This document shows positions 25,019 through 42,045 of a stretch of DNA of 64,000 bases, in pieces (the first letter of the stretch is position 1; each line of letters begins with the position of its first letter). The notes below the pieces were generated by a model. It saw only the letters and a list, made by a program, of their open reading frames with translations, was not told where the DNA came from and made no database searches. This DNA is from an uncultured Clostridia bacterium. GTDB taxonomy: Bacteria; Bacillota; Clostridia; Oscillospirales; Acutalibacteraceae. The stretch spans positions 25,348 to 89,347 of the forward strand of contig CALWUT010000003.1 in the NCBI GenBank assembly GCA_944384825.1. The letters are read 5' to 3'. The position numbers and the translations under genes are program-made.

Positions 25019-25438
25019 TTAGCAAGCAACTTTTTCCTTTTTTGCTCTGCCAAAATATTTAATAAGCCCGATTTCTTCTTTTCGAGAAAGTTTAGGAATT
25101 TGAATATTTCCAATCAGTTTGTAAAAAATCTCAACTCTTTGAGATGTCATTCCGTTAATAGTTTCACTATGATAAACTACAATCTTATCTATAAACTCAT
25201 TCAGAATATCAATCGTTAAATTGGGAATTTCAGAATAATTTTTTACAATATCCAAAAAGCTATCAACGTTAAGCTCATGCTTCTTATCTTCTAAAACAAT
25301 TCTTTTTTGAGCAACTATATCTTTGTGCATAATTCCATCAAGCGTTCTCCCAAAATCTTCACTTGATAGGTCTTGCAAATTCCACGTACAGCCTTGCGGT
25401 GTTTTTATTTCTGTATCGTTTATTTTGAAAAATGACAT
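25019..25438 (-). pseudogene. Deletion scar: phage DUF6711-like tail protein fused to serine recombinase C-terminus
   Basis: One open frame of 139 residues joins two unrelated families. Residues 1 to about 52 (MSFFKINDTEIKTPQGCTW, then GRTLDGIMHKDIVAQKR) look like the N-terminus of a small phage structural protein (DUF6711-like). From about residue 58 (NVDSFLDIVKNYSEI, then LTIDILNEFIDKIVVYHSE) it matches the C-terminal DUF4368 region of large serine recombinases. The catalytic recombinase part is missing. The ATG at 25438 has AGGAGG 7 bases upstream. Interpreted as a prophage excised by internal deletion, leaving its last recombinase segment beside tRNA-Pro. Confidence 0.7.
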
Positions 25439-25721
25439 TTTCATACCTCCTAAGTACAAAACAAAAAAGCCAAACCAAAATCAATTGATCCGGCTCTTTT
25501 AAGCTCTGCTCTTATTGTATCACAATAAATTATTTTTTTCAATCGCATATATACATACAACAAAATAACTGTTTTAAATTCAGTAAACATATAAAAAATG
25601 AGAGGGATGTAGAAAATCACGCGTTTCATAAAATACACTTGAAGTTTGTAAAATTATAGTCTATAATTTATAACTAGATGTAAATTTATGTAAAATACTA
25701 GATGAGTTGGAGGGGGTTTTA

Positions 25722-25820
25722 ATGGCAAAAGCTGAGGATAATTTTGATAGATTTATTGATGATTTATTTTCCGACTGGATTGCAATTATCGTCAAGAATA
25801 TCGCAATACGTAAACGCTAA
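25722..25820 (+). pseudogene. Truncated start of an unidentified gene
   Basis: Behind a strong GGAGGGGG site, a 32-codon frame begins MAKAEDNFDRFIDDLFSDW and then runs into the antisense of the portal fragment before stopping. The first 19 codons look like a genuine protein start cut off by a deletion near 25770. The reading frame and site are observed; the parent gene is unknown. Confidence 0.4.
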
Positions 25821-26342
25821 AATTGGCTTGTGCTGTGCTTCTGATAAATAAATTACAGAGGTAAATTTTGGGTCTAAAATTGGTATTAAAAATGGTGCAG
25901 ATTCTTTATCTACGTTTTCAATATCTTCATCGACGCAAATTAAACGATAAGCCGTACCGCATATTGACTGCCACTCTCCGAGCTGCGTATCTCCACAAGC
26001 CTTGTCAACGCTGTCCATCATGTTATTTAAAATCTCGACATTTTCTCTGCAATCTGTATCTTTTGAAGCGTATTTTATTGGTTCACCCAAGAAATATCCG
26101 TTAGCATTTCGTACAATTGAATACGCATTATTTACCACAATTTTATTGTTTACATCAGGTCTTATTACTTTGTTTCTTTTCAAAATCGGCTGATTTCCTG
26201 TAAAATATCTTTCTAAGTATGCAATTTGTCGGCTGTTTTCTTCATGCCTTGTCATCGCTCCGTTTATGATTTTTACAATGGAATTTACGTTTAAATTTTT
26301 GCATGATGTATATATTACTTTTCTTCCAAAAAGATTTTGCAC
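25764..26342 (-). pseudogene. Phage portal protein, N-terminal fragment (SPP1 gp6-like)
   Basis: The 192 residues match the N-terminal part of SPP1-type portal proteins (IAYLERYFTGNQPI, DVNNKIVVNNAYSIVRNANGYFLGEP), which form the DNA-entry ring of the capsid. Full-length members are roughly 450 residues, so the C-terminal half is gone; the frame ends at the junction near 25770. Starts with GTG behind AAAGGAGG. It lies downstream of terL as in intact phages, but the AbiE genes separate them. Non-functional as a portal. Confidence 0.85.
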
Positions 26343-26382
26343 TTTTGAATATTCCTCCTTTCAAAATCAATTTTTATAAAAC

Positions 26383-26421
26383 AAAAAAAGAACCAAAAAC
26401 CTAATTTTAGATTTCTGGCTC
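26383..26421 (-). terminator. Phage terminator upstream of the portal fragment
   Basis: On the minus strand GAGCCAGAAA pairs with TTTTTGGTTC (10 bp with wobbles), followed by TTTTTTT. A related AT-rich hairpin segment with similar flanks lies at about 25455-25515, in front of the recombinase scar. Confidence 0.7.
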
Positions 26422-26496
26422 TCTTGAAGCTCTTATTTACTTTTATTTTATTATACTATATTTGGAATTTTTTTGCAAATATATATTTTGAGTAAT

Positions 26497-27354
26497 TTAA
26501 TTATTTCTAGTTAATTCCTCCATGATTTTCATAATTAAATTACAAATATCCATAAAATCAATTCCTTGTGTATAAACAAACTCTTGTTGATATTTTATCC
26601 ATAGATTTTTAATAGGTGCATATTGTTTTATTCTTTCAATAATCACTTTATAGTCTTCAAAAAGTCCTAAAGTATTCTTTCTTTTACAAGTTTCATATAA
26701 AGCCACAGAAAGAATATTAGTATCAAATTTATTTTTATAGAGATTATAGAGGGTATAAACATCATAGTAATCACGCATTCTTGTACTATCTTCTCCTAAA
26801 CTTAAAATAGCATGGAGCTTCTCGGACAAAACAGTTTCAATATTATAAGACATAATTTTTATTTTTCTATCTTCAAATAATAATTTATAATCATACTCTA
26901 TCTCTTTCGGAGTAATTTTATCTCCGGTTGTTATATCTATGACTAGTGGAATTTTCATTTGCTCCATAAATGCGGTAAGCGATACACGAAGTCCAGGATA
27001 TAAATCTTGAACTCGTATATCCACAAATCCATTTAATTTAAAAGTTACATCATCATCAATTTTTATTTCTAATATCTCACTTAAAATATTTTGAGTTGAT
27101 TCTTTTGACAGTTTTAAACCCTTTAAAGTTGTGTCTAAATCCATTGTTGCTCTGTTTTCTATCCCCATAATCGAAGAAAGCAATACTCCACCTTTGATTA
27201 TAAAATTGCATTTATATTTTGAAACTGAAATTCTTTCCAGCAAACGCTCTATCATGTAATTTTGCATTATAATTTGAGGACTAAGTTTTGTTTCTATTGA
27301 CTTATTTTTTATGTGCTGACGTAAACTTTGTGCATTTTTTATGTTTTTTCCCAT
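26497..27354 (-). CDS. abiEii: AbiEii-type nucleotidyltransferase toxin
   Basis: Toxin of a type IV toxin-antitoxin and abortive-infection system; the family is a nucleotidyltransferase thought to block tRNA or GTP-dependent processes. Visible are the core IIKGGVLLSSIMG and ATMDLDTTLKG (the GG and the DxD-like metal motif), VIDITTGDKI, and the SEKLHAILS and RMRDYYDVYTLY motifs. About 285 residues, complete. The ATG at 27354 is preferred over a TTG 4 codons upstream that abuts its GGAG site. It follows abiEi by 16 bases. Located between terL and the portal fragment, a position typical of phage-borne cargo genes. Confidence 0.9.
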   Translation of the reverse strand: MGKNIKNAQSLRQHIKNKSIETKLSPQIIMQNYMIERLLERISVSKYKCNFIIKGGVLLSSIMGIENRATMDLDTTLKGLKLSKESTQNILSEILEIKIDDDVTFKLNGFVDIRVQDLYPGLRVSLTAFMEQMKIPLVIDITTGDKITPKEIEYDYKLLFEDRKIKIMSYNIETVLSEKLHAILSLGEDSTRMRDYYDVYTLYNLYKNKFDTNILSVALYETCKRKNTLGLFEDYKVIIERIKQYAPIKNLWIKYQQEFVYTQGIDFMDICNLIMKIMEELTRNN

Positions 27355-27370
27355 ATTTTTAATCAATCTC

Positions 27371-27973
27371 CTATAATAAAACAGATAAATATTTTTTTAT
27401 AGCTTGTTTTACTTTTAAAACCCCGGCATAATCATTCAATTTATGTAAATTATAATTTCCGCTATTAATGTACTCTCTAAAAGCATTATTTATAAATCTA
27501 ATATCACAATTAGCAGATTTTTTCACAATATCGCAAAGTGTTTTTTCTACATCATAAACCTTAACTTTTCTCCCAAATGATGTTTCTTTTTCAGTAATTC
27601 CAACTCTGTACTGACTTTTTATTGATGTTCTGATTCTGACATTTTGTTCTGACAACTTTCCCAGTCCATAATTATTGGGAACAGTAACAGAAAGTCTGCT
27701 GGGAGTTACATCTGTCATGCCATGCAAAAAAAGGGCTGTTTCATGCGAGAAAATTGCTTTTGAGAACATTGTTTGAAGAATAAACATATCATCTTCCCAT
27801 GTATCTGGAGTAATATAAATTCCTCTGCCTATCTTTTCTAATTCTCCATTTTTTACCATTCTTGACAAATAAATTCGTGGTATTTTTTTTTCGGTTAAAT
27901 TATTAGATAAAATCATTCCATTTTGTTTATTTAAAATTTCTTCTATTAATTTTTTATATTTCGTACTTTTCAC
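27371..27973 (-). CDS. abiEi: AbiEi-type antitoxin and repressor
   Basis: Partner of AbiEii: a transcriptional autorepressor and antitoxin. The N-terminal winged helix covers about 1-55 (NLTEKKIPRIYLSRMVKNGE, GIYITPD). The C-terminal domain holds AIFSHETALFLHGMTD and VYDVEKTLCDIVKK. 200 residues, complete. Starts with ATG behind GAGGTG. First gene of the abiEi-abiEii operon, which looks intact inside otherwise decayed phage genes. Neighbourhood and both domains agree, so the pair assignment is firm. Confidence 0.9.
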   Translation of the reverse strand: MKSTKYKKLIEEILNKQNGMILSNNLTEKKIPRIYLSRMVKNGELEKIGRGIYITPDTWEDDMFILQTMFSKAIFSHETALFLHGMTDVTPSRLSVTVPNNYGLGKLSEQNVRIRTSIKSQYRVGITEKETSFGRKVKVYDVEKTLCDIVKKSANCDIRFINNAFREYINSGNYNLHKLNDYAGVLKVKQAIKKYLSVLL

Positions 27974-28058
27974 CTCGTTTTGTTACTTGCATCATTAAAT
28001 CAAAATTTATTTACATGATAATAGTAACATATAAAACGATTTTGTCAAGCAATTTATT

Positions 28059-29715
28059 TTAAAAAGGCAAAGATTTTCTATCAATAAACTTAACCGAAAG
28101 TGTAGACAGTTCTTTAAAAAGTTGTGAAAGCATGGCGATAGCGTCGGGAGCGTCGTCATGTTTTGCTTTTCCGGTTACTGTAAAACTAAAAAGATTTTGC
28201 ATGAACCTTTTGTACTGTGTATCTTGTTTAGACTTATGAAGAAATATAAAATTTTTCTTTACAAAATCGCTCTCTGTGATAATTTTTGTGATCTTATTAC
28301 TTGATGTAAAAAATGTACGAACCCCAGTATTTCCGCCTTGATTTTTTTATTTGCTCGTCGACCTTTTTAGCATAGTAATCACCGCCGTTATTGGATTCTA
28401 TATCCATTCTTGAAACTTTATTTTTTACGCATAAATTAGCTACCATTGGTTTTGTGATTTCGTGTAGTCCGTTATTAAATACAACTTCATTTATATAAAT
28501 TTTATCTCCATAAACGTATCTACAAGGGCAGCAAACATAGTCTTCGCCTTGCCCTTTACTGTCGCACACTGCAATAATTGTGTTTTGCTTTTCTTTTGGT
28601 AGCTCAAAAAAATACTGAAAATCATCTTCTGAATATAACAATCCCTAACGTTCAATCGGTTCTTGCATATAAATTGTTCGCCATGAAATATCATCCATAT
28701 TTTCTTTCAAATCCAAAAAATATTCAGTAGAAAATCCTACGCCGTAATCGTAGTCAAAATTAGATTTTCCGTTTATATCAAGTGCCGGAAGTTTTACAAA
28801 TTTTGACTTTTCATCATCTAAATATCTTTGTTCCAGTCTGCCGATTGGGTCATGTATGCTCCATCTAGTGCCAATTATTAGCATTTTGCAATCTTGTTTC
28901 ATTCGTGACATAAAATCATTTGAAAATTTCGTCCATAAAATATCCATTCTTTCGTGATTTAACGCTTCTTCGCTGCCGGATACCATGTCATCGGCATACG
29001 CCAAAACCTCGCACCTCGTTGCTCCGGTTAATCCGCTGTCAATTGAGCGACAAGTCAAGGTTTTAAAGCGTTTGACTTGCTTTAAGTCGATTGTTTCATC
29101 TTTTGAATTTGTGCTGGCAAGTGGGGAATCGGGAAACACTTCGGAAAATTTATATTTTGGGTCTTTGATTATCTGTAAAGCTCCGTCAAAAAATGAACGT
29201 GTCAATTTATCGGCACAAGCTGTTGCTAGACTTGGCTTTAATGCTTCTTTTCCCATAAGCCATGTGATATAAAATATTCCGAGCGTTGATTTACCTGTTC
29301 CGGGTGGCATAGATATTCCTAATCTTACTAATTTTCCGTCTGCTAAGTCTTGTAAATCTTTGATAACTGAACATAAAACCTTGATTATCGGCTGATAAAA
29401 GCGTTTTTCAGCATCTCGGTCTTTCTCGATATAAAGCAAATATGAATGAAAATCGTATGGTGCAGCAGATGAAAACGTCTGCCAGTATTTTTTAAGTAGT
29501 CTTTTTCGCTGATTTATTCCTAAGTTGGCACTGGATAAAATTTTGTCAATTCTTTTTCTAAATTCTAAATTAATTCCCAAAGCATAAGAAATATCACTTT
29601 CACGAATATACAAAGTCCACAAGGCTTCGCATTTTTGTAAGTACAAATTATCTTGCATATTTGTGTGCTTTTTTAAATCTTTCAATAATTTGCTGATTAA
29701 TTCTCTGTTATTCAT
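28059..29715 (-). pseudogene. terL: Phage terminase large subunit, inactivated
   Basis: DNA-packaging ATPase. Residues 1-356 carry the ATPase with Walker A GMSIPP-GTGKST-like sequence (GISMPPGTGKSTLGIFYITW), Walker B VLAYADDMVSG and IIGTRWSIHD. An in-frame TAG at 28645-28647 interrupts EPIER-GLLYSEDD. The frame continues to near 28340, where one extra base after KKS shifts it; the next frame resumes GGNTGVRTFFTSSNK and TGKAKHDDAPDA, the nuclease-domain end, to 28059. With both repaired it is about 551 residues. Start ATG follows GAGGTGATG. One nonsense and one frameshift lesion make it a pseudogene. Confidence 0.88.
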
Positions 29716-31216: not shown

Positions 31217-31220
31217 GAAT

Positions 31221-31400
31221 CTTCACCCGTCACGAAAATTAAAAATTTTCTACGGGTACCCGGGAACCTTGTTGCTAACGCAATAAAGCCACTTGTAACA
31301 GTGGCAAATTTTAGAAAAGTGGTGTTTATTTAAGCCCTAAGAATCTAACGGAAAGTGTTTAAAAATTCAAAAAACAATTTTAAATAAACGCTTTTATTTA
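31221..31400 (+). ncRNA. Structured noncoding RNA, candidate raiA-motif RNA
   Basis: A GC-richer, strongly foldable block of about 180 bases. ACCCGT (31225) pairs with ACGGGT (31252) and encloses AAAATT/AATTTT. GGGTACCCGGG follows, then TTGC-TAAC-GCAA, the perfect hairpin GCCACT-TGTAAC-AGTGGC, and a 12-bp helix between 31322-31333 and 31380-31391 enclosing GCCCTAAGAATCTAACGG. The order and the conserved-looking CCCGUC, ACGGGUACCCGGG and CCCUAAGA stretches resemble my recollection of the raiA motif RNA, an abundant clostridial RNA of about 200 bases linked to sporulation and aggregation. Identity needs a covariance-model search; the structure itself is clear. Confidence 0.55.
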
Positions 31401-31582: not shown

Positions 31583-32773
31583 ATGTTATTGATGAAAAAA
31601 TTTTTGAAAAAAATGAGCAGAGAAATTACTTTAACAGTAGTTACAATTACCTCAGCAGCTATAACAATTTATGGAGCAGTAAAAGCTGTCGAAAGCAATA
31701 TTGTAGACGACACGAGTGAAAGCGTTCAAACGGAAACGCAGCTTACTAGTGAAGAAATTGATAAAATAATAGAAGACTTGAAAATGTCGGGAGATATAGA
31801 TAACATATTAGAAAAATTGGATGAAATTATTCAGAGAGCTCAGTTGTCAGGAAATTCGGCATTACAAGAATATGCAACTAATATGAAGACGTCTTATGAA
31901 CTTCAAAAACAACTCGACAGTGTAAATAGTCTTATAGAAGCTATGAAAAAGAAAAATTCTGAGATAGCTGCTGTAGATGAACAAGTAAAACGTATCCTTT
32001 CAGTTGACACTATTGTTCAGGATTTAAAGGGTGCCGTTTCAGATGAAGCACTTTTATTACTGGAATCTTTAAGTGATGAAAATTTAAAAGCACTTCAAGA
32101 ATTACTTGCAGAGATTGAAAGTTTGTTCGATCTGAATGATGTTTCTTCACTTACTATCCAAGAACGAAGTTTGCTAGATATTTTAGTTTTAAAAGAAGTA
32201 ATAGAAGAAAGTATGGTAGAAGGAGAAAGGTTAGAGCTTGCAAAAAATACTCTTTCAGTAGCTGTAACCATTCTTGAGTCATATCAAAAGCAAAATTATG
32301 CTCAAGCTGAATATAACGAACTTATTCAGGGAACTGAAGAATTCCTGAAAGCGGGTAAGAAAGCTTCTAGCGTTTTACCGGAACAGATAATTTTTTTGGG
32401 AGGATATTTTAATTTGCAGCATTCCCCCATAATGTATGACGGACATATTCTAGTAGCATTAGAAGATTTGTATCAGTACATTGACGCAACAGTTGAATAT
32501 ATGTATAACAATGCAACAATGGTTATAAATTCTCCTGATAAGATTTTAGAAATAGTAAGCGGAAAAAATATCGCTTACTTAAATGACAAACCATATAATA
32601 TGCCGGTTCCTATATTATCTTTTAAGGATACTATTTACATGTCAATTGAGTTCTTTGCGCAGGCTTATGATATCTCATTCCGCTATCTTCCTGATCATGG
32701 TTTTATAATTTTATATAAAAATCTAAACCAGCTTAAAAATCCTTCAGTACCTAATCAACTAAATAAAGGATAA
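31583..32773 (+). CDS. Secreted coiled-coil protein with copper amine oxidase-like (stalk) domain
   Basis: 396 residues behind AGGAGG. The N-terminus (KKMSREITLTVVTITSAAI, then TIYGAVKAV) is a signal peptide or membrane anchor. About 50-260 is Glu/Lys-rich helical coiled coil (LTSEEIDKIIEDLK, MKKKNSEIAAVDEQVK). About 270-385 matches the copper amine oxidase N-terminal-like domain found in many clostridial surface proteins (PIMYDGHILVALEDLYQYI, AYLNDKPYNMP, YMSIEFFAQAYDISFRY). No catalytic residues are expected in this domain. It immediately precedes the contractile-injection-related genes, but a functional link is only inferred from position. Confidence 0.75.
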   Translation: MLLMKKFLKKMSREITLTVVTITSAAITIYGAVKAVESNIVDDTSESVQTETQLTSEEIDKIIEDLKMSGDIDNILEKLDEIIQRAQLSGNSALQEYATNMKTSYELQKQLDSVNSLIEAMKKKNSEIAAVDEQVKRILSVDTIVQDLKGAVSDEALLLLESLSDENLKALQELLAEIESLFDLNDVSSLTIQERSLLDILVLKEVIEESMVEGERLELAKNTLSVAVTILESYQKQNYAQAEYNELIQGTEEFLKAGKKASSVLPEQIIFLGGYFNLQHSPIMYDGHILVALEDLYQYIDATVEYMYNNATMVINSPDKILEIVSGKNIAYLNDKPYNMPVPILSFKDTIYMSIEFFAQAYDISFRYLPDHGFIILYKNLNQLKNPSVPNQLNKG

Positions 32774-32848
32774 CCATTATCTTAACGATTAAAAGATATA
32801 AAATACTTTTGAATTAACCTTACACTTCTAAAGAGGGGATGTAACAAA

Positions 32849-33721
32849 ATGGCAAAGTACACTATAATCTCGGATATTGGAAAAGGAATGATTGAACTCC
32901 TTAGAGATAAATTAGTTCCGGATCCTGTAGATAAAGCAGAAAGTATTGGAATATGCGATCCAAAGGAAAGAGGAGGTTATATAGTAGGTGTTCATCCTTA
33001 CGACATAAAAGAAGATACAAGTGGGAGAGGAGCTGAAAATAATCCGCTTCCTGATGGTAGTGTTCAAGATCCTCCGGCTATGGTAGAGCTTTATTATGTA
33101 ATTTCCGTGAGCAGTAAAGCAGAGCTTGAAGTTAAAGCGCTGGACGAAGCAAAAATAATAGGGAAAATAATACAGACTTTTAAAGACAATGCTACTATTC
33201 CTGCAAGGTATATGCCCAACAATGCTGGGATGCCGCTTGAGAGTGTTCCGATCAGTATGCTTCCGATTAGTATGGAAGAAAAGGTTAAAGTTTGGACTAT
33301 GTTTGGAGAATCCTATAAGTTGTCAGTTTTTTACGTTGTAGGGCCTGTAGCTATTGATTCAGAAAAAATTCATAAAGCTAAGAAGAGAGTGGAAACCGTA
33401 CACCTGGGAAGTAAGCAGTACACACCGGAAAAAGTTTTGGAGTTTGCAACTTTTATTAAAGAAGAAGATATAGACGATGAATATACTCAGCGTCCCGATG
33501 AAGATGAAGACGAAGATGAAAATGATGAATTCGGCGATGAAAGTTCAGATGATGAAAATAGTGATGAATTCGGAGATGAAAGCTCGGATGATGAAAATGT
33601 TGATGAAGTGGGTGATGGAGAAGAAAGTAATAGCGTTGATGGGGAAATTACTGAGGATGACGAAACTTCAAATGAAGGAGAATTAAATGAAGATATAAAT
33701 TTTGAATCTTCTGATGAGTAA
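32849..33721 (+). CDS. DUF4255 / Pvc16-family contractile injection system protein with acidic repeat tail
   Basis: Residues 1 to about 180 match the DUF4255 family: IISDIGKGMIELLRDKLVP, VELYYVISVSSKAELEV, DEAKIIGKIIQTFKDN and KVWTMFGESYKLSVFYVVGP. Afp16/Pvc16 members are described as terminator or cap proteins that set the length of extracellular contractile injection tubes. The remaining 110 residues are a highly acidic tail with a 13-residue tandem repeat (NDEFGDESSDDEN and variants), which is unusual for the family. GGGG-rich site before ATG. First of four closely spaced genes with DUF4280 and the AAA+ ATPase. The family call is confident; the role in this organism is inferred. Confidence 0.85.
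   Translation: MAKYTIISDIGKGMIELLRDKLVPDPVDKAESIGICDPKERGGYIVGVHPYDIKEDTSGRGAENNPLPDGSVQDPPAMVELYYVISVSSKAELEVKALDEAKIIGKIIQTFKDNATIPARYMPNNAGMPLESVPISMLPISMEEKVKVWTMFGESYKLSVFYVVGPVAIDSEKIHKAKKRVETVHLGSKQYTPEKVLEFATFIKEEDIDDEYTQRPDEDEDEDENDEFGDESSDDENSDEFGDESSDDENVDEVGDGEESNSVDGEITEDDETSNEGELNEDINFESSDE
33521..33634 (+). repeat. 39-bp tandem repeat encoding an acidic 13-residue unit
   Basis: Two near-identical 39-base units (33521-33559, 33560-33598) and a third diverged copy encode DEFGDESSDDEN-type units inside the DUF4255 gene. Differences between units 1 and 2 are mostly synonymous, suggesting selection on the acidic pattern. Confidence 0.85.
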
Positions 33722-33753
33722 ATGTATTTTAAAGAGTAGGAAAGGGAATAAAA

Positions 33754-34542
33754 ATGAGAGTTATATATAGAGCATCATTGGTTTTTCTTCTAAAAGATAT
33801 TTATTCTAAGCTTCCTATAACAAGCGCAGTAATTTTATGTAATGGAAAGCAAAATCCTTACACCAGAAAAAATGATGGTCATTATGTTTTTTCAAACTTA
33901 TATCCCGGAAGTTATGAAGTGGACATAAATTGCAAGGGCTACAATCCTTTAAGGATTCATATTGATCTTAAAGAGAATGAGACTAAAATAATAAATTCAG
34001 ACTTATCTTATACCCCTGATAATCAAAATATTGCAAATGTAACTCGTTTTGAAATTACATGTATAAGAAAGAAACAACCTTTGGCAAATACTCAGGTAAT
34101 TGTTAGACTTCAAAATGAAGCAAGTTTTATGAAATTATTAGAGCCTATTAAAGCAGGAAGTGATGAACTAAAACTTAACATCGAAATGATGACTGGTTTG
34201 CTTGGTCAAAGTTACATTTATGAGGTTGATAAAAAAAAGTATAATATGTATTTGTGGAGTTATAATCAGGAAAATAAATGTTATATTTTAAAAGATATCG
34301 TAAATGAAGAAATAAAACCGGGAGGTAGATTTTATCCGCAATGGGAAATACGTTCTGATTCGATTGGGCGAGCTGTAATGCCGCTTATAGGTCAATTTAT
34401 GAAAGATGATGAAATAAAGTTTGAATGTATTTCAGAGGATTTAAGGTCTAAAGTGTCATTTAACGTAAAAGATAAACATCAATCTGGAGAAGTGCTTTAT
34501 GAAAAAGCAAATTTTAGAAAGATACCTAAAAGAAAAAAATAG
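33754..34542 (+). CDS. Carboxypeptidase regulatory-like domain protein of the injection-system cluster
   Basis: 262 residues, no signal peptide. About 15-85 is a carboxypeptidase regulatory-like or SpaA-type beta-sandwich (LPITSAVILCNGKQNPYTRK, VFSNLYPGSYEVDINCKGYN, PLRIHIDLKENE). The remainder, with RFEITCIRKKQPLANTQVIV and WEIRSDSIGRAVMPLIG, looks like a second beta-rich domain that I do not recognise. It sits between the DUF4255 and DUF4280 genes with 32- and 12-base gaps, so it is almost surely co-transcribed. It might be an adaptor or fibre-like component; that is inference. Confidence 0.6.
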   Translation: MRVIYRASLVFLLKDIYSKLPITSAVILCNGKQNPYTRKNDGHYVFSNLYPGSYEVDINCKGYNPLRIHIDLKENETKIINSDLSYTPDNQNIANVTRFEITCIRKKQPLANTQVIVRLQNEASFMKLLEPIKAGSDELKLNIEMMTGLLGQSYIYEVDKKKYNMYLWSYNQENKCYILKDIVNEEIKPGGRFYPQWEIRSDSIGRAVMPLIGQFMKDDEIKFECISEDLRSKVSFNVKDKHQSGEVLYEKANFRKIPKRKK

Positions 34543-34554
34543 GAGAATAATATT

Positions 34555-34944
34555 ATGGGAATATTAGTAGTTAATGGAGCTCAGTGTACTTGCTCTATGG
34601 GAACCGCTCCGTCTTCGTTAGTAGTAATACCTGAAAGTATGGCTATGGGTGAAAACAACCCTATAGCTACTATTATGGACAATAAACCTATGGTTAATAT
34701 TATGCCTTTTGCGATGTGTACATCTCTTGCAAATCCTCAGGTATCTGCCGCAACGTCTGCAGCAGGTGGAGTTTTAACTCCCATGCCTTGTACTCCGGTA
34801 ACTCCCGCTCCATGGACTCCTGGATCTCCAACAGTTATGATAGGCAACAAACCAGCTTTAAATAACTCTTCTACTGTTATGTGTAATTGGGCCGGATTAA
34901 TTTCTATAACTAATCCTGGAGCTACGAAAACCATGGTGCCTTAA
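34555..34944 (+). CDS. DUF4280 PAAR-like spike-tip protein
   Basis: 129 residues matching the DUF4280 family: begins GILVVNGAQCTCSMGTAPSS, has PIATIMDNKPMVNIMPFAMC, a Pro/Thr-rich stretch (CTPVTPAPWTPGSPTVMIG) and ends CNWAGLISITNPGA. The Cys spacing is well conserved. DUF4280 proteins are PAAR-like and are thought to sharpen the spike of contractile injection systems or type VI-like machines and to carry effectors. GGAGAATAAT precedes the ATG, 12 bases after the previous gene. Intact. Confidence 0.88.
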   Translation: MGILVVNGAQCTCSMGTAPSSLVVIPESMAMGENNPIATIMDNKPMVNIMPFAMCTSLANPQVSAATSAAGGVLTPMPCTPVTPAPWTPGSPTVMIGNKPALNNSSTVMCNWAGLISITNPGATKTMVP

Positions 34945-34979
34945 ATAAAAATTTATGTTAAAGTCAGAGAGGTCTGAAA

Positions 34980-37052
34980 GTGGAAGAAAAATTTTTTAAT
35001 ACATTTTTAGTTCGCGAAAATGAAGGATATAATAATAATTCTGAATATATAGCAGATGAATTCAGACATAAACTTTACTTATTAAAATATTATTTAAAAT
35101 GTCAGGCAAATAATGAATTAGATGAATACAAAGACAAGGTTTTAAAAACTTTTTATAATATCGAATTAATAATGGGGAAAAAAATAAAATTAACTGAAAA
35201 TAATGTATTTTTTGCTTCCAGATATGTAAAAGAAATTTTTAAGTTAAATAGAATAGAGTGGTTTAGTTTAATCCTTGCTATGATGGCTAATGCGGATGCT
35301 GAGTATCTCAATTTGATGTTAAAAGTTGAAAAATCGAATATTTTAACTTACAATGCTATTTTAAAAGTTTATTTTTTTGTGTCCGATATTACTCAAATAA
35401 AAGATTATTACAATATATTATCTTCACTTTCCGAAAAAATGGATTTGTTTTGCTTTATGCACGGACGTCCCGAGATAGATAAAAGACTTTTTGAAAACAT
35501 AATGAGTAATTCTGAAAGTAATATAAATATTTCTGGATTAAATATGTATATACCTTTAAATGACGAATACAAGAATTTAATTATTCGTGAAGATATTTCA
35601 AAAAGTATAGTTAATTTTTTGAAAAACTCAAAAATTTCTGATAAAAATTATTTTTATATTCACGGAGAAAAAGGGATAGGTAAAAGAACTATTGTACGCC
35701 GGGTGTGTTCTTTAAGAAATAAAGGGGTTATAGAAATAGATCTGGAAAGATTAAGAGAAGACGAAACAAGTTTTACTGATTATGTTCTTATGGGATGTAG
35801 GGAAGCTTTTTTTATAAAAGGTTATATTTACATCTTTAATATCGATAAAATACTTCAGAAAGAAAACAAAGATTTATTTTACCTTAAATTTGCGATTAAC
35901 ACCGCTTCTCAATTTTCGGAAGTAGTTTTTTTAGTTTCGGATAAGGATATAAATTTAGTACAAAAAGTTCCTGAGCTAAAGTACATTGAAATACCTGTGC
36001 CTCCGCTTAGTAACGATGAAAGCTTTAAACTGTGGGATCATAATATAAAAAGTTTAAGTAAAGATAAAACAGTCGATGCACATGAATTAGCAAATAAATT
36101 CAATTTTACTCCTAAACAAATAAAAAATACTGTTTTAAACGCTCTAAATCAAAGTTTATTAGAGGAAAAAAAGAAAATAAATAAAAACTTAATTTCCAGG
36201 TGTGCGTATAAGCAAGTAACAAGTAATTTATCTGATAAAGCTACTTTAATTGAGAAAAAACATTCCTGGAATGAATTGGTTCTAAGTCCAAAAGAAAAAG
36301 AAATAATTAAAAGAGCTTGCGATCAAATAAGATACAGACATATTGTATATGATAAATGGGAAATGAATAAACGAGTTTTATACGGCAAAGGCCTCAGTAT
36401 GCTTTTTGCAGGTCCTTCGGGCACAGGTAAAACTATGGCCGCACAAGTAGTAGCTAACGAGCTTGAACTCGAAATTTATAAAGTTGATTTATCGCAAGTA
36501 ATATCAAAATATATAGGGGAATCAGAAAAAAATCTTGGAGAAGTATTTGAAAGTGCTAAAAAAAGCAACGTCATACTTCTTTTTGATGAAACTGATGCAC
36601 TTTTTTCAAAACGTACAGAAGTAAAAGACTCTCATGATAGAAATGCTAATGTAGAAACGTCTTATCTTTTACAAAAAATGGAAGAGTACAACGGAATAAC
36701 TATTATGACTACCAACTTCCTAGAGAATATTGATAAAGCCTTTTTTAGAAGAATAAGTTATGTAGTTCACTTTGCATTTCCGAATTCTAGCGCAAGGAAA
36801 GAAATATGGGAAAAGATTTATCCCTCGAGTATGCCGCTTTCCAAAGATGTGGATTTTAACTTTTTAGCTCGGCAGTTTGAAATATCAGGAGGAAGTATTA
36901 AAAATATAGCACTCAATTCAGCTTTTATGGCAGCAGCGGAAAGTAAAAAAATTGAAATGAAGCATATTATAAAAGCAATTGAATATGAAGTAAAAAAACA
37001 AGGTAAAATGGTTTCTAAAAGTGATTTTGGAGAGTATTCGTACATGCTATAA
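34980..37052 (+). CDS. AAA+ ATPase of the extracellular contractile injection system type (Afp15-like)
   Basis: 690 residues, GTG start behind AGAGAGG. An N-terminal helical region (1 to about 200) precedes a first, degenerate AAA module with P-loop GEKGIGKRT near 229. The second, canonical AAA module has Walker A GPSGTGKT at 478-485, Walker B VILLFDETDALFSKR near 532, sensor 1 TIMTTNFLENIDKAFFRR and HFAFPN. The NIDKAFFRR...FAFPN pattern is characteristic of the ATPase conserved in eCIS loci (Afp15/Pvc15), thought to help assembly. Last gene of the cluster. Downstream is the unrelated tspO, so core sheath and tube genes must be elsewhere or lost. Confidence 0.85.
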   Translation: MEEKFFNTFLVRENEGYNNNSEYIADEFRHKLYLLKYYLKCQANNELDEYKDKVLKTFYNIELIMGKKIKLTENNVFFASRYVKEIFKLNRIEWFSLILAMMANADAEYLNLMLKVEKSNILTYNAILKVYFFVSDITQIKDYYNILSSLSEKMDLFCFMHGRPEIDKRLFENIMSNSESNINISGLNMYIPLNDEYKNLIIREDISKSIVNFLKNSKISDKNYFYIHGEKGIGKRTIVRRVCSLRNKGVIEIDLERLREDETSFTDYVLMGCREAFFIKGYIYIFNIDKILQKENKDLFYLKFAINTASQFSEVVFLVSDKDINLVQKVPELKYIEIPVPPLSNDESFKLWDHNIKSLSKDKTVDAHELANKFNFTPKQIKNTVLNALNQSLLEEKKKINKNLISRCAYKQVTSNLSDKATLIEKKHSWNELVLSPKEKEIIKRACDQIRYRHIVYDKWEMNKRVLYGKGLSMLFAGPSGTGKTMAAQVVANELELEIYKVDLSQVISKYIGESEKNLGEVFESAKKSNVILLFDETDALFSKRTEVKDSHDRNANVETSYLLQKMEEYNGITIMTTNFLENIDKAFFRRISYVVHFAFPNSSARKEIWEKIYPSSMPLSKDVDFNFLARQFEISGGSIKNIALNSAFMAAAESKKIEMKHIIKAIEYEVKKQGKMVSKSDFGEYSYML

Positions 37053-38567: not shown

Positions 38568-40286
38568 TTAATCTTCTCTTAATGCATCGAAAGTATCCAT
38601 AAGATTTAACGTTCCATATCCCCATTGGACATTTGGGTATTCTCTGCTGTTGTCTCTGCTACATCCTCTAATTAAAATTGAGCGAAGTCTTGTTCCAGTA
38701 GTATACGAAGCATTTTCTTGAACAATTGCCCATTGGAAAAATAAAGCTCCGGCACCGGCGGTTATTGCGGAAGAAATGCTTGTACCTGTCATGGTTCCTA
38801 TTCCGAAAGGAAAGAGTCCTGATACATTAACTCCCGGTGCAACAAAATCAGGTGCTAGTTTTGAGGTTGTAGTTGGACCCCAAGAGCTGTTAATATACAA
38901 ACTGTTTTCTTTGTTATTATATGCTCCTACTGCAATGGTTCCGATTGAAGTAGAAGGAATAACTACAGTATAATTAGGTGTAGGAGATACAAATTCTATG
39001 TCTGGACTTATAAATCCTTTCATAGGAAGCCACGCATGAAATTTTCCATCTACGATTACATCTCCATGTAATCGTATTTCCCATATTCCCGGTACAATAT
39101 CTTCTATTTGAACAATAGAAAATCTATTTCCATTTTGATGATATAAAATTTTTACCAAAGATTTCTCAAAGATTAATCTTTTTTCATAGTACGTTCCGAC
39201 AAAGAAAGGTATACGATTGATAACTTCTCCGGTAGGTGATTTTAAGGAAAAAGAGATTTTATCCCAACCGCTATACCATATGTAAACACTTAGTGACTTT
39301 GCTTTTTCTCCTACTCTTATTTCAATAGGAAAGACTTCTTCATTTTTGGTTATTATTCCTTCGGTATGATGTCTGGCATTACTTTCATTACCTACCGCAG
39401 TACATACTGCTATTCCTATTGCATTTGAAATGAAAGAAATGAAACTTTCCAGTCTATTGCGTCCATTGTGTGCTCCAAAATTACTTCCTATTCCCAAACA
39501 TATAACACAGGGAGCATTCAATAATTGTACTGCTCTATTTATAGCAAAATTTATTCCTAACATTATATCTATTGATTCAAATGCATTTTCCTGATCTTCC
39601 GGGACTAAAAATTGTCTTCTGTAATAATTGCTTGCACTTTTAAGTTTTACTGCTATTATATCCGCATCAGGAGCAGCACCGATAAAACCTTCATATTCTC
39701 TTCCTGCTGCAATAGAAGCAAGAAAAGTACCATGACCTACTGTATCTTGATGAGGTACTATGCTATAAGGATCTTCTGATCTGAGTGCTTCATTTATTTG
39801 CTCTTGCGTGTAAACAGTGCCAAAAAAAGCGTCTTCTTCAGGTTGAGAATCAATAGTTTGATCCCATATGTACTTTATCTTAGTGGTTCCGTCTTCATAT
39901 TTAAATACAGGACTTGTATAGTCTATACCGGTGTCTATAAATGCTGTAACAACCCCTCTGCCCGTCAAATTAAGATATGGTCTTTCTTGAACCCTTATTA
40001 TTCCTGCGGCTTCTAAGGCTTCTATTCCAGTTAATCCGTAAACTTCAGAATAGACGTTTAAAAAATCATATCCAAGCTCTTTAAAAATTTCTTCCATGTG
40101 ACTTTCAGTAGTGTATAGTATTGCTACAAAGTTTGGTAATACTGTTCCTAGTCTAATATAAGGTCTTTGAGAAATATAATCTTGAAATTGAGGAGTATAC
40201 CAATAGTAAAAACTTACTGTATAAGGCAATTTTATAAATTCATTTAAAGGCATTTCTTGAATTTGTTCGTTGGATAATTCTTCCAT
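38568..40286 (-). CDS. S8 family subtilisin-like peptidase (Csp-like), second copy
   Basis: 572 residues without a signal peptide. Catalytic triad intact: Asp near 117 (VTAFIDTGIDYTSP), His near 185 (DTVGHGTFLAS), Ser near 502 (MTGTSISSAITAG). The roughly 300-residue insertion between His and Ser has the beta-rich jelly-roll design of clostridial Csp proteases, which process the cortex hydrolase SleC during spore germination. It follows the other S8 gene by 25 bases on the same strand. A germination role is inferred from architecture; other cytoplasmic or spore roles are possible. Confidence 0.85.
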   Translation of the reverse strand: MEELSNEQIQEMPLNEFIKLPYTVSFYYWYTPQFQDYISQRPYIRLGTVLPNFVAILYTTESHMEEIFKELGYDFLNVYSEVYGLTGIEALEAAGIIRVQERPYLNLTGRGVVTAFIDTGIDYTSPVFKYEDGTTKIKYIWDQTIDSQPEEDAFFGTVYTQEQINEALRSEDPYSIVPHQDTVGHGTFLASIAAGREYEGFIGAAPDADIIAVKLKSASNYYRRQFLVPEDQENAFESIDIMLGINFAINRAVQLLNAPCVICLGIGSNFGAHNGRNRLESFISFISNAIGIAVCTAVGNESNARHHTEGIITKNEEVFPIEIRVGEKAKSLSVYIWYSGWDKISFSLKSPTGEVINRIPFFVGTYYEKRLIFEKSLVKILYHQNGNRFSIVQIEDIVPGIWEIRLHGDVIVDGKFHAWLPMKGFISPDIEFVSPTPNYTVVIPSTSIGTIAVGAYNNKENSLYINSSWGPTTTSKLAPDFVAPGVNVSGLFPFGIGTMTGTSISSAITAGAGALFFQWAIVQENASYTTGTRLRSILIRGCSRDNSREYPNVQWGYGTLNLMDTFDALRED

Positions 40287-40311
40287 GTTGTGTACCTCTC
40301 TTTATAATCAC

Positions 40312-42045
40312 TTATGAATATCCGTTAAACGTTTGGAGCTGCATAAGAGTATCATACAGACACAAACTTCCATATCCCCATTCTCGATTGGGATAAAGGA
40401 TATTTGGTTGACGTCTTGCTCCACTTTTAAGATAAGCTTTTATTCTTTCACCATATAAAAAAGGATCGTTAAGTTCAACTATTCCCCACTGCATCATTAA
40501 AGCAGCGGAACCGGTTACGAAAGGCGCTGCCATACTGGTTCCACTAAAAGTAGTATATCCTCCATTTATCTTCGTTGTAACTATTCCAATCGATGGAGCT
40601 ACTATATCGGGCTTTGTAAAAACTATATTTAATGTATTTCCTCTTCCCGAAAAACCAGCTATAATGCTCCGAGCAGAATCATATCCTCCAACAGTTATGA
40701 CGTTTAAAGCTGTGGAAGGAAGAGTAAGAGTAGTGTTAGTACTTGAAATTGTAAATGATGTTTCCTCAGTTACTTCTTCAACAGTAGGTAGATAAATATT
40801 GTATTTTCCATCTACTATTTCAGCTGCACGTATTCTAATTGTAAAAATTCCTACCGGAGGAGTATTTCGATTTGATTTTACTTGGAAAAATACTTCTTGA
40901 AATGAACTGTAAAATTGAGGTTGACTGTAATTTATAAGTATTGATATATCTCCAATGCGATAAGTGCGAGTAAGGTCAAACTGTAATATTTCACCGGTTG
41001 ATTGTCCTCCTGGAAGCACAAGTTCGACAGTGATGGAATCTACAAAATTTTTCCATAAAGTTATATAAAACGAAGAAAATTTTCCTGCATAGAAAAATGA
41101 CACTTCTTGCATTTCACCAGATTTTATTTCTCCTTCATAATGATGTCCTGCTTCTCCTTCGTTTCCAGAAGCAACAATTATGGAAGTTTTCCAGTATTGA
41201 GCCATATCATCTATGAAATTTTCAAAAAGAGATTGACCATTATGTGGTCCGTCATTAGTGCCGTAGCTTATATTTATTGCAATAGGCATTTGAAGCTCTC
41301 TAGCTTTGTCTATAACGTACTTCAGCGCTCTCATAAATTCGGTAGTTCTAGCAAATGAAGGAAGTCCTTTTTCTCCTAATTTGACTATTATCAGCGATGC
41401 TTTAGGAGCTACTCCCACATTTTCTCCGTTAGATGAACGACCATTTCCGGCTGCTATTCCTGCTACAGCGGTTCCATGACCTACAGTATCGACTTCTGGA
41501 ACGATTTCATAAGGATTAGAACTCAAAAGGGCGGCGTTTATATCCTCGTTTGTATACTCTGCACCATGAGTAAATCCTGAGGGTATTTTACCTGTTTCTG
41601 TTTGATCCCACATGTATAATATTCTACTGGTTCCATCTTCATTTATAAAATCAGGATGAGTATAATCAATTCCTGAATCTATAATTCCAATTATTACTCC
41701 TTCTCCTGATAAATTAAAGTCTTTGGGACTTCTTACATTAGTTATACATGATTTATTAATTGCATCTTTAAGATTAAGAGTCAAAGTTTTAGGAGACTCT
41801 ACGTGTTCTACTTCGGAATATCTGATTAAAAGAGGAATTTTATCTAGCGTAAGTGTAGCTATAGCGTAATTTTCGCTTACAATCTCTACTTCAATATCTA
41901 ATTCTTCTCCTACTTTCATGATATCTCCGTTAAATTTTATAATTACTTCCCAAAGACTAATTGAAGATACATATCCGGCTTCCAATTCGGTATTTTGAAA
42001 TTCTGATATTATTTGTCTGTCGGGGATCCGATTTATAAAAGGCAT
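40312..42045 (-). CDS. S8 family subtilisin-like peptidase (Csp-like), first copy
   Basis: 577 residues, first gene of a two-protease operon, ATG behind AAAGGAGG. Triad: Asp near 124 (GIIDSGIDYTHPDF), His near 190 (DTVGHGTAVAGIAAG), Ser near 498 (FSGTSMAAPFVTGSA). The prodomain-like first 100 residues contain the EVEHVESPKTL segment common in this family. As in Csp proteases, a long jelly-roll region separates His and Ser. It is clearly paralogous to the neighbouring copy and also keeps all catalytic residues, unlike the CspA/CspC pseudoproteases of C. difficile. Confidence 0.87.
   Translation of the reverse strand: MPFINRIPDRQIISEFQNTELEAGYVSSISLWEVIIKFNGDIMKVGEELDIEVEIVSENYAIATLTLDKIPLLIRYSEVEHVESPKTLTLNLKDAINKSCITNVRSPKDFNLSGEGVIIGIIDSGIDYTHPDFINEDGTSRILYMWDQTETGKIPSGFTHGAEYTNEDINAALLSSNPYEIVPEVDTVGHGTAVAGIAAGNGRSSNGENVGVAPKASLIIVKLGEKGLPSFARTTEFMRALKYVIDKARELQMPIAINISYGTNDGPHNGQSLFENFIDDMAQYWKTSIIVASGNEGEAGHHYEGEIKSGEMQEVSFFYAGKFSSFYITLWKNFVDSITVELVLPGGQSTGEILQFDLTRTYRIGDISILINYSQPQFYSSFQEVFFQVKSNRNTPPVGIFTIRIRAAEIVDGKYNIYLPTVEEVTEETSFTISSTNTTLTLPSTALNVITVGGYDSARSIIAGFSGRGNTLNIVFTKPDIVAPSIGIVTTKINGGYTTFSGTSMAAPFVTGSAALMMQWGIVELNDPFLYGERIKAYLKSGARRQPNILYPNREWGYGSLCLYDTLMQLQTFNGYS

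Follow-up and report, generated by a model that had tools for sequence, protein, structure and literature searches.

The 64,000-base stretch analysed here (the window, G000:C3:25348-89347, in genome G000 of an uncultured Clostridia bacterium of the Acutalibacteraceae) carries a compact set of five genes at window positions 31583-37052. We conclude with high confidence that this set is the cap, tip and motor half of one contractile injection system (CIS) of the extracellular type (eCIS), and that the half for the barrel and baseplate lies on a second contig, C18, of the same genome (1,179,751 bases, 23 contigs, completeness 98.64 %). An earlier note, made from the window sequence alone, had called the module an orphan and offered two accounts, a machine split over two loci, with this one supplying tip, cap and assembly factor, or a module with another purpose. 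The first is borne out by the operon on C18, and the second fails on that operon and on the co-occurrence of both halves over 398 genomes. The label 'orphan' is wrong, as the module makes up one half of a set.

All five genes are intact and on the + strand, with intergenic gaps of 75, 32, 12 and 35 bases in order, so that the four tightly spaced genes noted earlier become five when the gene for a stalk protein (31583-32773, 396 aa) is counted. Three of the predicted identities were upheld by Pfam, all above the family cut-offs. These are the DUF4255/Pvc16_N protein, the sheath-tube cap or terminator (32849-33721, 290 aa; 93.1 bits, cut-off 27, E 2.2e-26), the DUF4280 PAAR-like spike tip (34555-34944, 129 aa; 125.7 bits, cut-off 26.3) and the AAA+ ATPase (34980-37052, 690 aa, GTG start; Pfam AAA 110.2 bits, cut-off 21.2), which has the position and type of Afp15/Cis15. 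DUF4255 is present in a single copy in G000 (genome-wide profile search). Among solved structures, the cap protein 9gts is matched by its profile at E 3.7e-5; the matches to 9wt1 and 7adz Algo1 are weak (E 0.03-0.04). The C-terminus of the cap protein is a 95-residue acidic tail (window 33434-33718) with 47 D/E and 2 K/R. The DUF4280 protein scores 41.7 bits against NCBIfam IglG, where the model cut-off of 200 is not reached, and a sequence search among solved structures gave no relative. The ATPase has Walker A (GPSGTGKT) and Walker B (ILLFDETDA) motifs, and the core motif residues are invariant across the 9 rows of its alignment (A5). As had been observed before, the surroundings of the module hold no other part of the machine: no sheath, tube, gp25 or baseplate protein was found among the 18 window proteins (25-43 kb) scanned with Pfam, and in the genome-wide searches sheath and tube were matched on C18 only.

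The missing parts are encoded by a 13-gene minus-strand operon at G000:C18:81.6-99.7 kb. In order, it encodes a sheath (573 aa), a tube protein (174 aa), a 124-aa protein with a CxxC pair (zn124), a second tube protein (298 aa), a coiled-coil protein (208 aa), an 893-aa protein, a hub-like protein (388 aa), a spike with a phage-baseplate OB domain (251 aa), gp25, two baseplate wedges (1002 and 723 aa), a Tail_P2_I protein (401 aa) and a 597-aa protein. The sheath family PF04984 (69.1 bits, C18:98327-98779) has its sole G000 match here, where Phage_sheath_1C was also matched, and the gp19 tube family has two (115.1 and 42.3 bits) in a search of all of G000. The tube family was found in none of the 14 control genomes. 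Among relatives, the length of the second tube protein ranges from 162 to 647 aa. The baseplate is represented by GPW_gp25 (46.5 bits), Phage_base_V (63.9), Baseplate_J (29.6) and Tail_P2_I (48.7), and the 1002-aa protein, which has no Pfam match, resembles a baseplate wedge in PHROG (E 4.6e-12). A genome-wide check for contractile genes, proposed in the earlier note, is answered by these genes. The 893-aa protein occupies a tape-measure-like position, with no Pfam family and one weak PHROG match of unknown function, and is possibly the tape measure. For zn124 there was a weak PHROG match to tail assembly chaperones (E 0.0028) and no meaningful match among solved structures.

None of the 13 proteins of the operon gave a Pfam match to the cap, PAAR or ATPase families (E<=0.01). 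The window module and the C18 operon are both intact and form complementary halves. Between them, the predicted products include the marks of an eCIS, namely sheath, tubes, baseplate, cap, PAAR tip and AAA+ ATPase. One particle is presumably assembled out of both halves. A LysM (Afp7) protein was not found among the 13 operon proteins by Pfam; this is not weighed against eCIS membership, because LysM is ranked as a shell domain, outside the eCIS core (PMC8213781).

The halves are also co-distributed and co-inherited. In a sample of 398 family genomes, evenly drawn out of a larger group, DUF4255 was found in 24 and zn124, used as the marker for the barrel operon (profile A1), in 22, all of them inside the DUF4255 set (Fisher 4e-34, uncorrected for kinship and descriptive only, because the family genomes are related). 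The two genomes with DUF4255 and without zn124, G129 and G131, both have a sheath, and in G129 the contig stops within it. For the genus of G000, six genomes are listed and five have both markers; G067, of the same genus, has neither DUF4255, zn124 nor a sheath that could be found. The 24 DUF4255-positive genomes comprise 16 that resemble the window (lineage A) and eight others (the second lineage). The DUF4255 and zn124 distance matrices are correlated (Mantel r 0.81, 21 genomes, 0/2000 permutations), and also within lineage A (r 0.715, 14 genomes, 0/2000 permutations); G336, a fragment of unsure placement, was left out of this test.

The least possible distance between the halves in G000 is 127.6 kb, even if C3 and C18 were neighbours, and the corresponding values are 52.9 kb in G189 and 40.8 kb in G099. 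In two further metagenome-assembled genomes a single contig spans both halves. In G152 (CAMZEH010000001.1, 418,719 bases) the end of the ATPase gene and the start of the sheath gene are ~103 kb apart, and in G151 (= G263; JAFQXU010000035.1, G263:C25) the halves are ~51 kb apart. A distance of more than 10 kb between DUF4255 and the marker was not taken as a split, because G097, in which the halves are neighbours, already has 22 kb. The proof cases are those above 40 kb (G000, G099, G189 and G263) and G152. Contig ends limit what can be said of G005, G033, G246 and G336, values of 10 to 16.4 kb were obtained for G164, G209, G307, G323, G368 and G398, and the remaining lineage-A contigs are too short to exceed the 22 kb of G097.

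Comparison with relatives, also suggested in the earlier note, shows the joined arrangement. In G097 the module and the barrel operon are on one contig, ~5.8 kb apart. The stretch between them (L040:7695-13318) holds HAMP-domain, MORN-repeat and LysM genes, and relatives of the MORN-repeat and HAMP-domain genes occur upstream of the stalk gene in seven other loci, not in the window. Seven second-lineage genomes have DUF4255 and zn124 3.1-3.8 kb apart, and in the loci read from this lineage (G078, G124, G156 and G157) DUF4255 and PAAR lie directly ahead of the sheath. Another genome with the system, G155 (CACXMR010000002.1, L022), has two module-type AAA genes ~7 kb apart on one contig, the second ~1 kb before a sheath gene. 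The zn124 tree places G097 just outside the 13 other lineage-A genomes (support for the inner group 93/96); branches are long in the DUF4255 tree, which does not resolve where G097 falls within lineage A. Most simply, the halves were joined in an ancestor and came apart later, in one or more events. Separation is seen in at least two genera (g1 and g99), with another arrangement in g34.

The carboxypeptidase-regulatory-like (CRD) protein (33754-34542, 262 aa) scored 28.5 bits in Pfam, under the cut-off of 32.3. Its AlphaFold model (pLDDT 91.5) has an N-terminal CRD domain followed by further beta structure, which agrees with what had been read from the sequence. The domain superposes on those of carboxypeptidases D and N with a root-mean-square deviation of 1.9-2.9 Å over ~80 columns. 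In the three second-lineage loci examined (G078, G124 and G156), DUF4255 and PAAR are separated by a CRD-like gene, and profiles of the CRD protein and this same-slot gene align with hhalign probability 97.2 (E 3.5e-11, 100 columns). Known CIS parts were considered as relatives and rejected, as the sequence and fold searches returned just the CRD domain and generic beta proteins (surface, pilin and phage-tail proteins). The CRD protein appears to be a conserved small part encoded between cap and tip, and our guess is an adaptor or spike accessory.

The stalk protein was suspected from the outset to belong to the module, and its distribution supports this. It consists of an N-terminal hydrophobic stretch (from residue ~15), a helical region and a C-terminal Cu_amine_oxidN1 domain (Pfam 49.9 bits, cut-off 24.2). 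The hydrophobic N-terminus is present in all 9 rows of its alignment (profile A3), with no second such stretch, making the protein a candidate membrane anchor. Its AlphaFold model is fair (pLDDT 71.8), and the fold search matched the Cu-amine-oxidase N1 domain alone, weakly (best E 3.5e-3). Profile A3 has matches in 18/398 genomes. The 15 strong ones (E<=1e-20) are all in DUF4255-positive genomes (15/24 vs 0/374 of the DUF4255-negative) and all in lineage A (15/16, not found in G398). The three weak ones cover the C-terminal domain alone, in the DUF4255-negative G061, G102 and G290. The profile did not find the protein in any of the eight second-lineage genomes. The stalk gene adjoins DUF4255 in 11 of the 15 genomes. 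In g34 it is on the barrel side in two (G164 and G246) and on a third contig in two (G033 and G307); in all four it adjoins a relative of the window ATPase gene, DUF4255 and CRD are located elsewhere, and no PAAR gene was seen in the stretches read. As the gene moves with the ATPase gene and the full form was not found without the machine, the stalk protein is very likely part of it. It may act with the ATPase or baseplate while anchored in the membrane. That it anchors the particle to the envelope is a tentative proposal, with the doubts slightly ahead.

Among solved structures, the G000 sheath is most similar to the CIS/type VI secretion system (T6SS) sheath of Halogeometricum borinquense (9EZM, haloarchaeal Cis2; E 2e-117). 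That system belongs to clade IIa, in which the nearest relatives of its Cis11 are from Bacillota; it is described as cell-bound with a conserved putative membrane anchor, and its structural genes form two subclusters ~8.7 kb apart in one gene cluster (PMC11566945). The structural genes here are likewise in two subclusters, but 51 to >127 kb apart. The putative haloarchaeal anchor has six predicted membrane helices (PMC11566945), whereas the stalk protein has one N-terminal hydrophobic stretch and Cu_amine_oxidN1. Sheath similarity suggests that these Clostridia represent the bacterial side of the haloarchaeal clade, with the two-subcluster layout fully separated. The second-best solved match is the sheath of the Streptomyces coelicolor CIS (8BKY, E 1.3e-104), a cytoplasmic system of a Gram-positive host reported to have two tube homologues and neither a conventional tail fibre nor a typical tape measure (PMC10066040). 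Two tubes are shared with G000, which has two loci where the reported S. coelicolor system has one gene cluster. In the AFP and PVC systems several sheath genes lie within one cassette. The G000 sheath also matches Afp2-4 and Pvc2-4, three sheaths each, whereas the operon here has a single sheath gene and the machine two loci; cap, ATPase, PAAR, gp25 and baseplate have the same roles as in AFP and PVC. In the open-access literature, as far as its text was available, we found neither a split eCIS in Clostridia nor an eCIS in the small genome clade described below.

By analogy with known CIS, DUF4255 would cap tube and sheath, DUF4280 would tip the spike, the AAA+ protein would assist assembly or loading, and contraction would push the tube across a membrane. 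Two proposals are held more weakly. The particle might be tethered by the stalk protein to the envelope of the bacterium itself and fire in a cell-bound, T6SS-like mode, which is how the closest solved relative is reported to act. The target might be a eukaryotic cell housing the bacterium, given the ATP/ADP translocases and the deubiquitinase-domain protein encoded in the genome.

In detail, G000 has two genes for ATP/ADP translocases (TLC, PF03219; E 1.4e-140 and 3.6e-123), a family found in 0/14 control genomes. The first (G000:C18:76345-77793) is 3.8 kb off the barrel operon, a gap that measures 3.7 kb in the sister genome G189. TLC was found in 23/80 genomes tested, among them 12/16 lineage-A genomes, the lineage-A-like G150, G152 and G153, and the second-lineage G156 and G157 (L074 and L077; 0.8-0.9 Mb), which carry the joined machine. 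Both machine lineages thus occur with this mark. It was found in none of nine further system-bearing genomes (G078, G124, G155, G197, G221, G224, G270, G336 and G373) and in 6/50 DUF4255-negative genomes (5/9 picked for other matches, 1/41 arbitrary), with a weak match in G067 (9.2e-15). The deubiquitinase-family domain (UCH, PF00443) is present in 17/398 genomes, a count that includes G307, which falls under the cut-off: 11/24 with DUF4255, all of lineage A, and 6/374 without. In both G152 and G368 the gene immediately upstream of the stalk gene encodes a UCH domain, and in G150 a UCH relative identified by BLAST lies two genes upstream of it, after a Macro-domain gene. These UCH genes and the Macro gene (L017:5379-6392, L139:4820-7324 and L144:2181-3143) are possible cargo.

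A small genome clade of Acutalibacteraceae has been reported with genomes of 0.86-1.4 Mb (one of 1.9 Mb), 30-39 % guanine-plus-cytosine (GC) and ATP/ADP translocase and ubiquitinyl hydrolase domains; three members were shown inside termite-gut protists, and the rest are gut metagenome-assembled genomes (PMC10579323). Sec export was suggested there for eukaryote-like proteins with signal peptides, and no word in the main text starts with 'contractile', 'phage' or 'secretion'. With 1.18 Mb, 31.2 % GC in the window, two translocases and one UCH-domain protein, G000 probably belongs to this clade. The same trio of machine, translocase and deubiquitinase is found in an unrelated lineage, the Bacteroidota, where the amoeba symbiont Amoebophilus asiaticus is reported to have an eCIS-related subtype-4 T6SS, an ATP/ADP translocase and predicted ubiquitin-specific proteases (PMC8831229, PMC7394362). 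For this reason we take use on a eukaryotic host as the leading functional reading, held tentatively and at slightly less than an even chance.

Several observations count against host-directed use. Among lineage-A genomes, TLC was not seen in G129, G131, G164 and G209. The G000 UCH gene (C18:217997-218674, L162), which adjoins a MORN-repeat gene, is near neither half. UCH occurs in the system-free relatives G046, G067, G086, G093, G201 and G274, and TLC in the system-free G041, G046, G067, G086, G201 and G274, so that both domains mark a lifestyle and are not proof of cargo. G046, G067, G086, G201 and G274 have both and lack the machine, and the trio can therefore be uncoupled. In its fullest form this reading would have ATP-stealing intracellular Clostridia breach the host membrane from inside a protist with a stalk-anchored machine, delivering the deubiquitinase and other eukaryote-like effectors. 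At least two genera would descend from an ancestor that had uncoupled cap, tip and motor from the barrel operon, which would allow loading or arming to be controlled separately from building. As a whole, we regard this as unlikely.

The two-half account faces objections of its own. The split machine is predicted from genes, in a draft genome of 23 contigs. The agreement between DUF4255 and zn124 distances is confounded with descent. The sheath family taken alone is unspecific, with matches in 3/14 control genomes and a second match in G078, G131, G153 and G157. In G131 (G131:C74, L054) the contig continues for 2.6 kb past sheath and tube and zn124 is absent there, so that it cannot be called a strictly universal marker; the gene after sheath and tube encodes 699 aa, consistent with another gene order or loss of zn124. 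The genome-wide copy count was made for DUF4255 only, so a second DUF4280 or ATPase copy elsewhere is possible.

Of the other explanations, the one that survives best is a particle freed by lysis that acts on other bacteria, in the manner of tailocins and antibacterial eCIS. Free particles are among the known eCIS, antibacterial toxins are reported from some loci (PMC8213781), and a MazF/PemK-family gene lies upstream of the sheath operon in G000, with relatives in five other structural loci (cluster c5). The co-distributed protein with a membrane-anchor-like N-terminus, the two TLC genes and the UCH-domain gene of G000, and the UCH genes next to the stalk gene in G152 and G368 argue the other way, and we consider this explanation rather unlikely, if still a serious one. 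Action within the producing cell, as for the cytoplasmic Streptomyces CIS in stress-induced death, would fit the Gram-positive host and second-best sheath match of that system (PMC10066040), but the cell-bound haloarchaeal sheath is the better match and ~18 kb plus 5.5 kb kept for self-killing would seem costly for a reduced genome; we think it improbable. That the module is an orphan relic or repurposed, in a cell with no machine, would suit the absence of sheath, tube and baseplate from its neighbourhood, but is refuted by the operon in the same genome and the co-occurrence described above unless that operon is a contaminant (GC 32.3 % in its region of C18 vs 31.2 % in the window), and is very improbable. 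An assembly or binning artefact, to which the draft state of G000 and the short contigs that hold the halves in several relatives might point, is scarcely credible because the single-contig genomes show both halves apart, and the least possible distances in G000, G189 and G099 agree.

A survey criterion for eCIS has been four members grouped within 12 kb (PMC8213781), and linkage-based surveys would here record the barrel half only, or miss the cap half. The split machine adds a candidate delivery system to a Clostridia group proposed as energy parasites, and the stalk protein becomes a candidate, open to testing, for the membrane anchor of a CIS in a Gram-positive bacterium. The presence of an injection machine, an ATP/ADP translocase and a deubiquitinase in one genome is a convergence with Amoebophilus.

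The flanks of the C18 operon do not include capsid, portal or terminase genes; fragments of the latter two belong to a distinct degraded element found at the window locus. The operon is flanked by ordinary genes of the chromosome. On one side of it is LemA/TPM and on the other are MazF/PemK-family, GNAT, hemN-, lepA- and pnp-like genes (four calls by Pfam, the hemN-, lepA- and pnp-like ones by reading of the sequence). The sheath gene is preceded by a 312-aa gene. Its relative in G189 matched no Pfam family, and relatives (cluster c0) occur in 11 of the 14 genomes in which the sheath locus was read.

Around the module, the phage relic upstream and tspO downstream were correctly described in the earlier note, and the RNA is not supported. 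For an RNA or riboswitch upstream of the stalk gene (probably the stretch at window 31220-31350), no Rfam family was over threshold, the two matches at E<=5 being to eukaryotic families and at chance level, and the stretch is unconserved in seven relatives. The degraded phage remnant (window 25019-28641) includes an SPP1-type portal fragment, a T7-type terminase RNase-H fragment and a DUF4368 fragment, which we take to be of the kind found in recombinases. An AbiEii toxin (126 bits) and AbiEi antitoxin (33.3 bits) pair lies inside this region (window 26497-27973). G189 has the same flanking genes as the window module (tspO, laccase-like and subtilase). The subtilase region (window 38568-42045) has two genes, one with a CspB prodomain, a domain linked to spore germination, which is unusual for a suspected intracellular genome.

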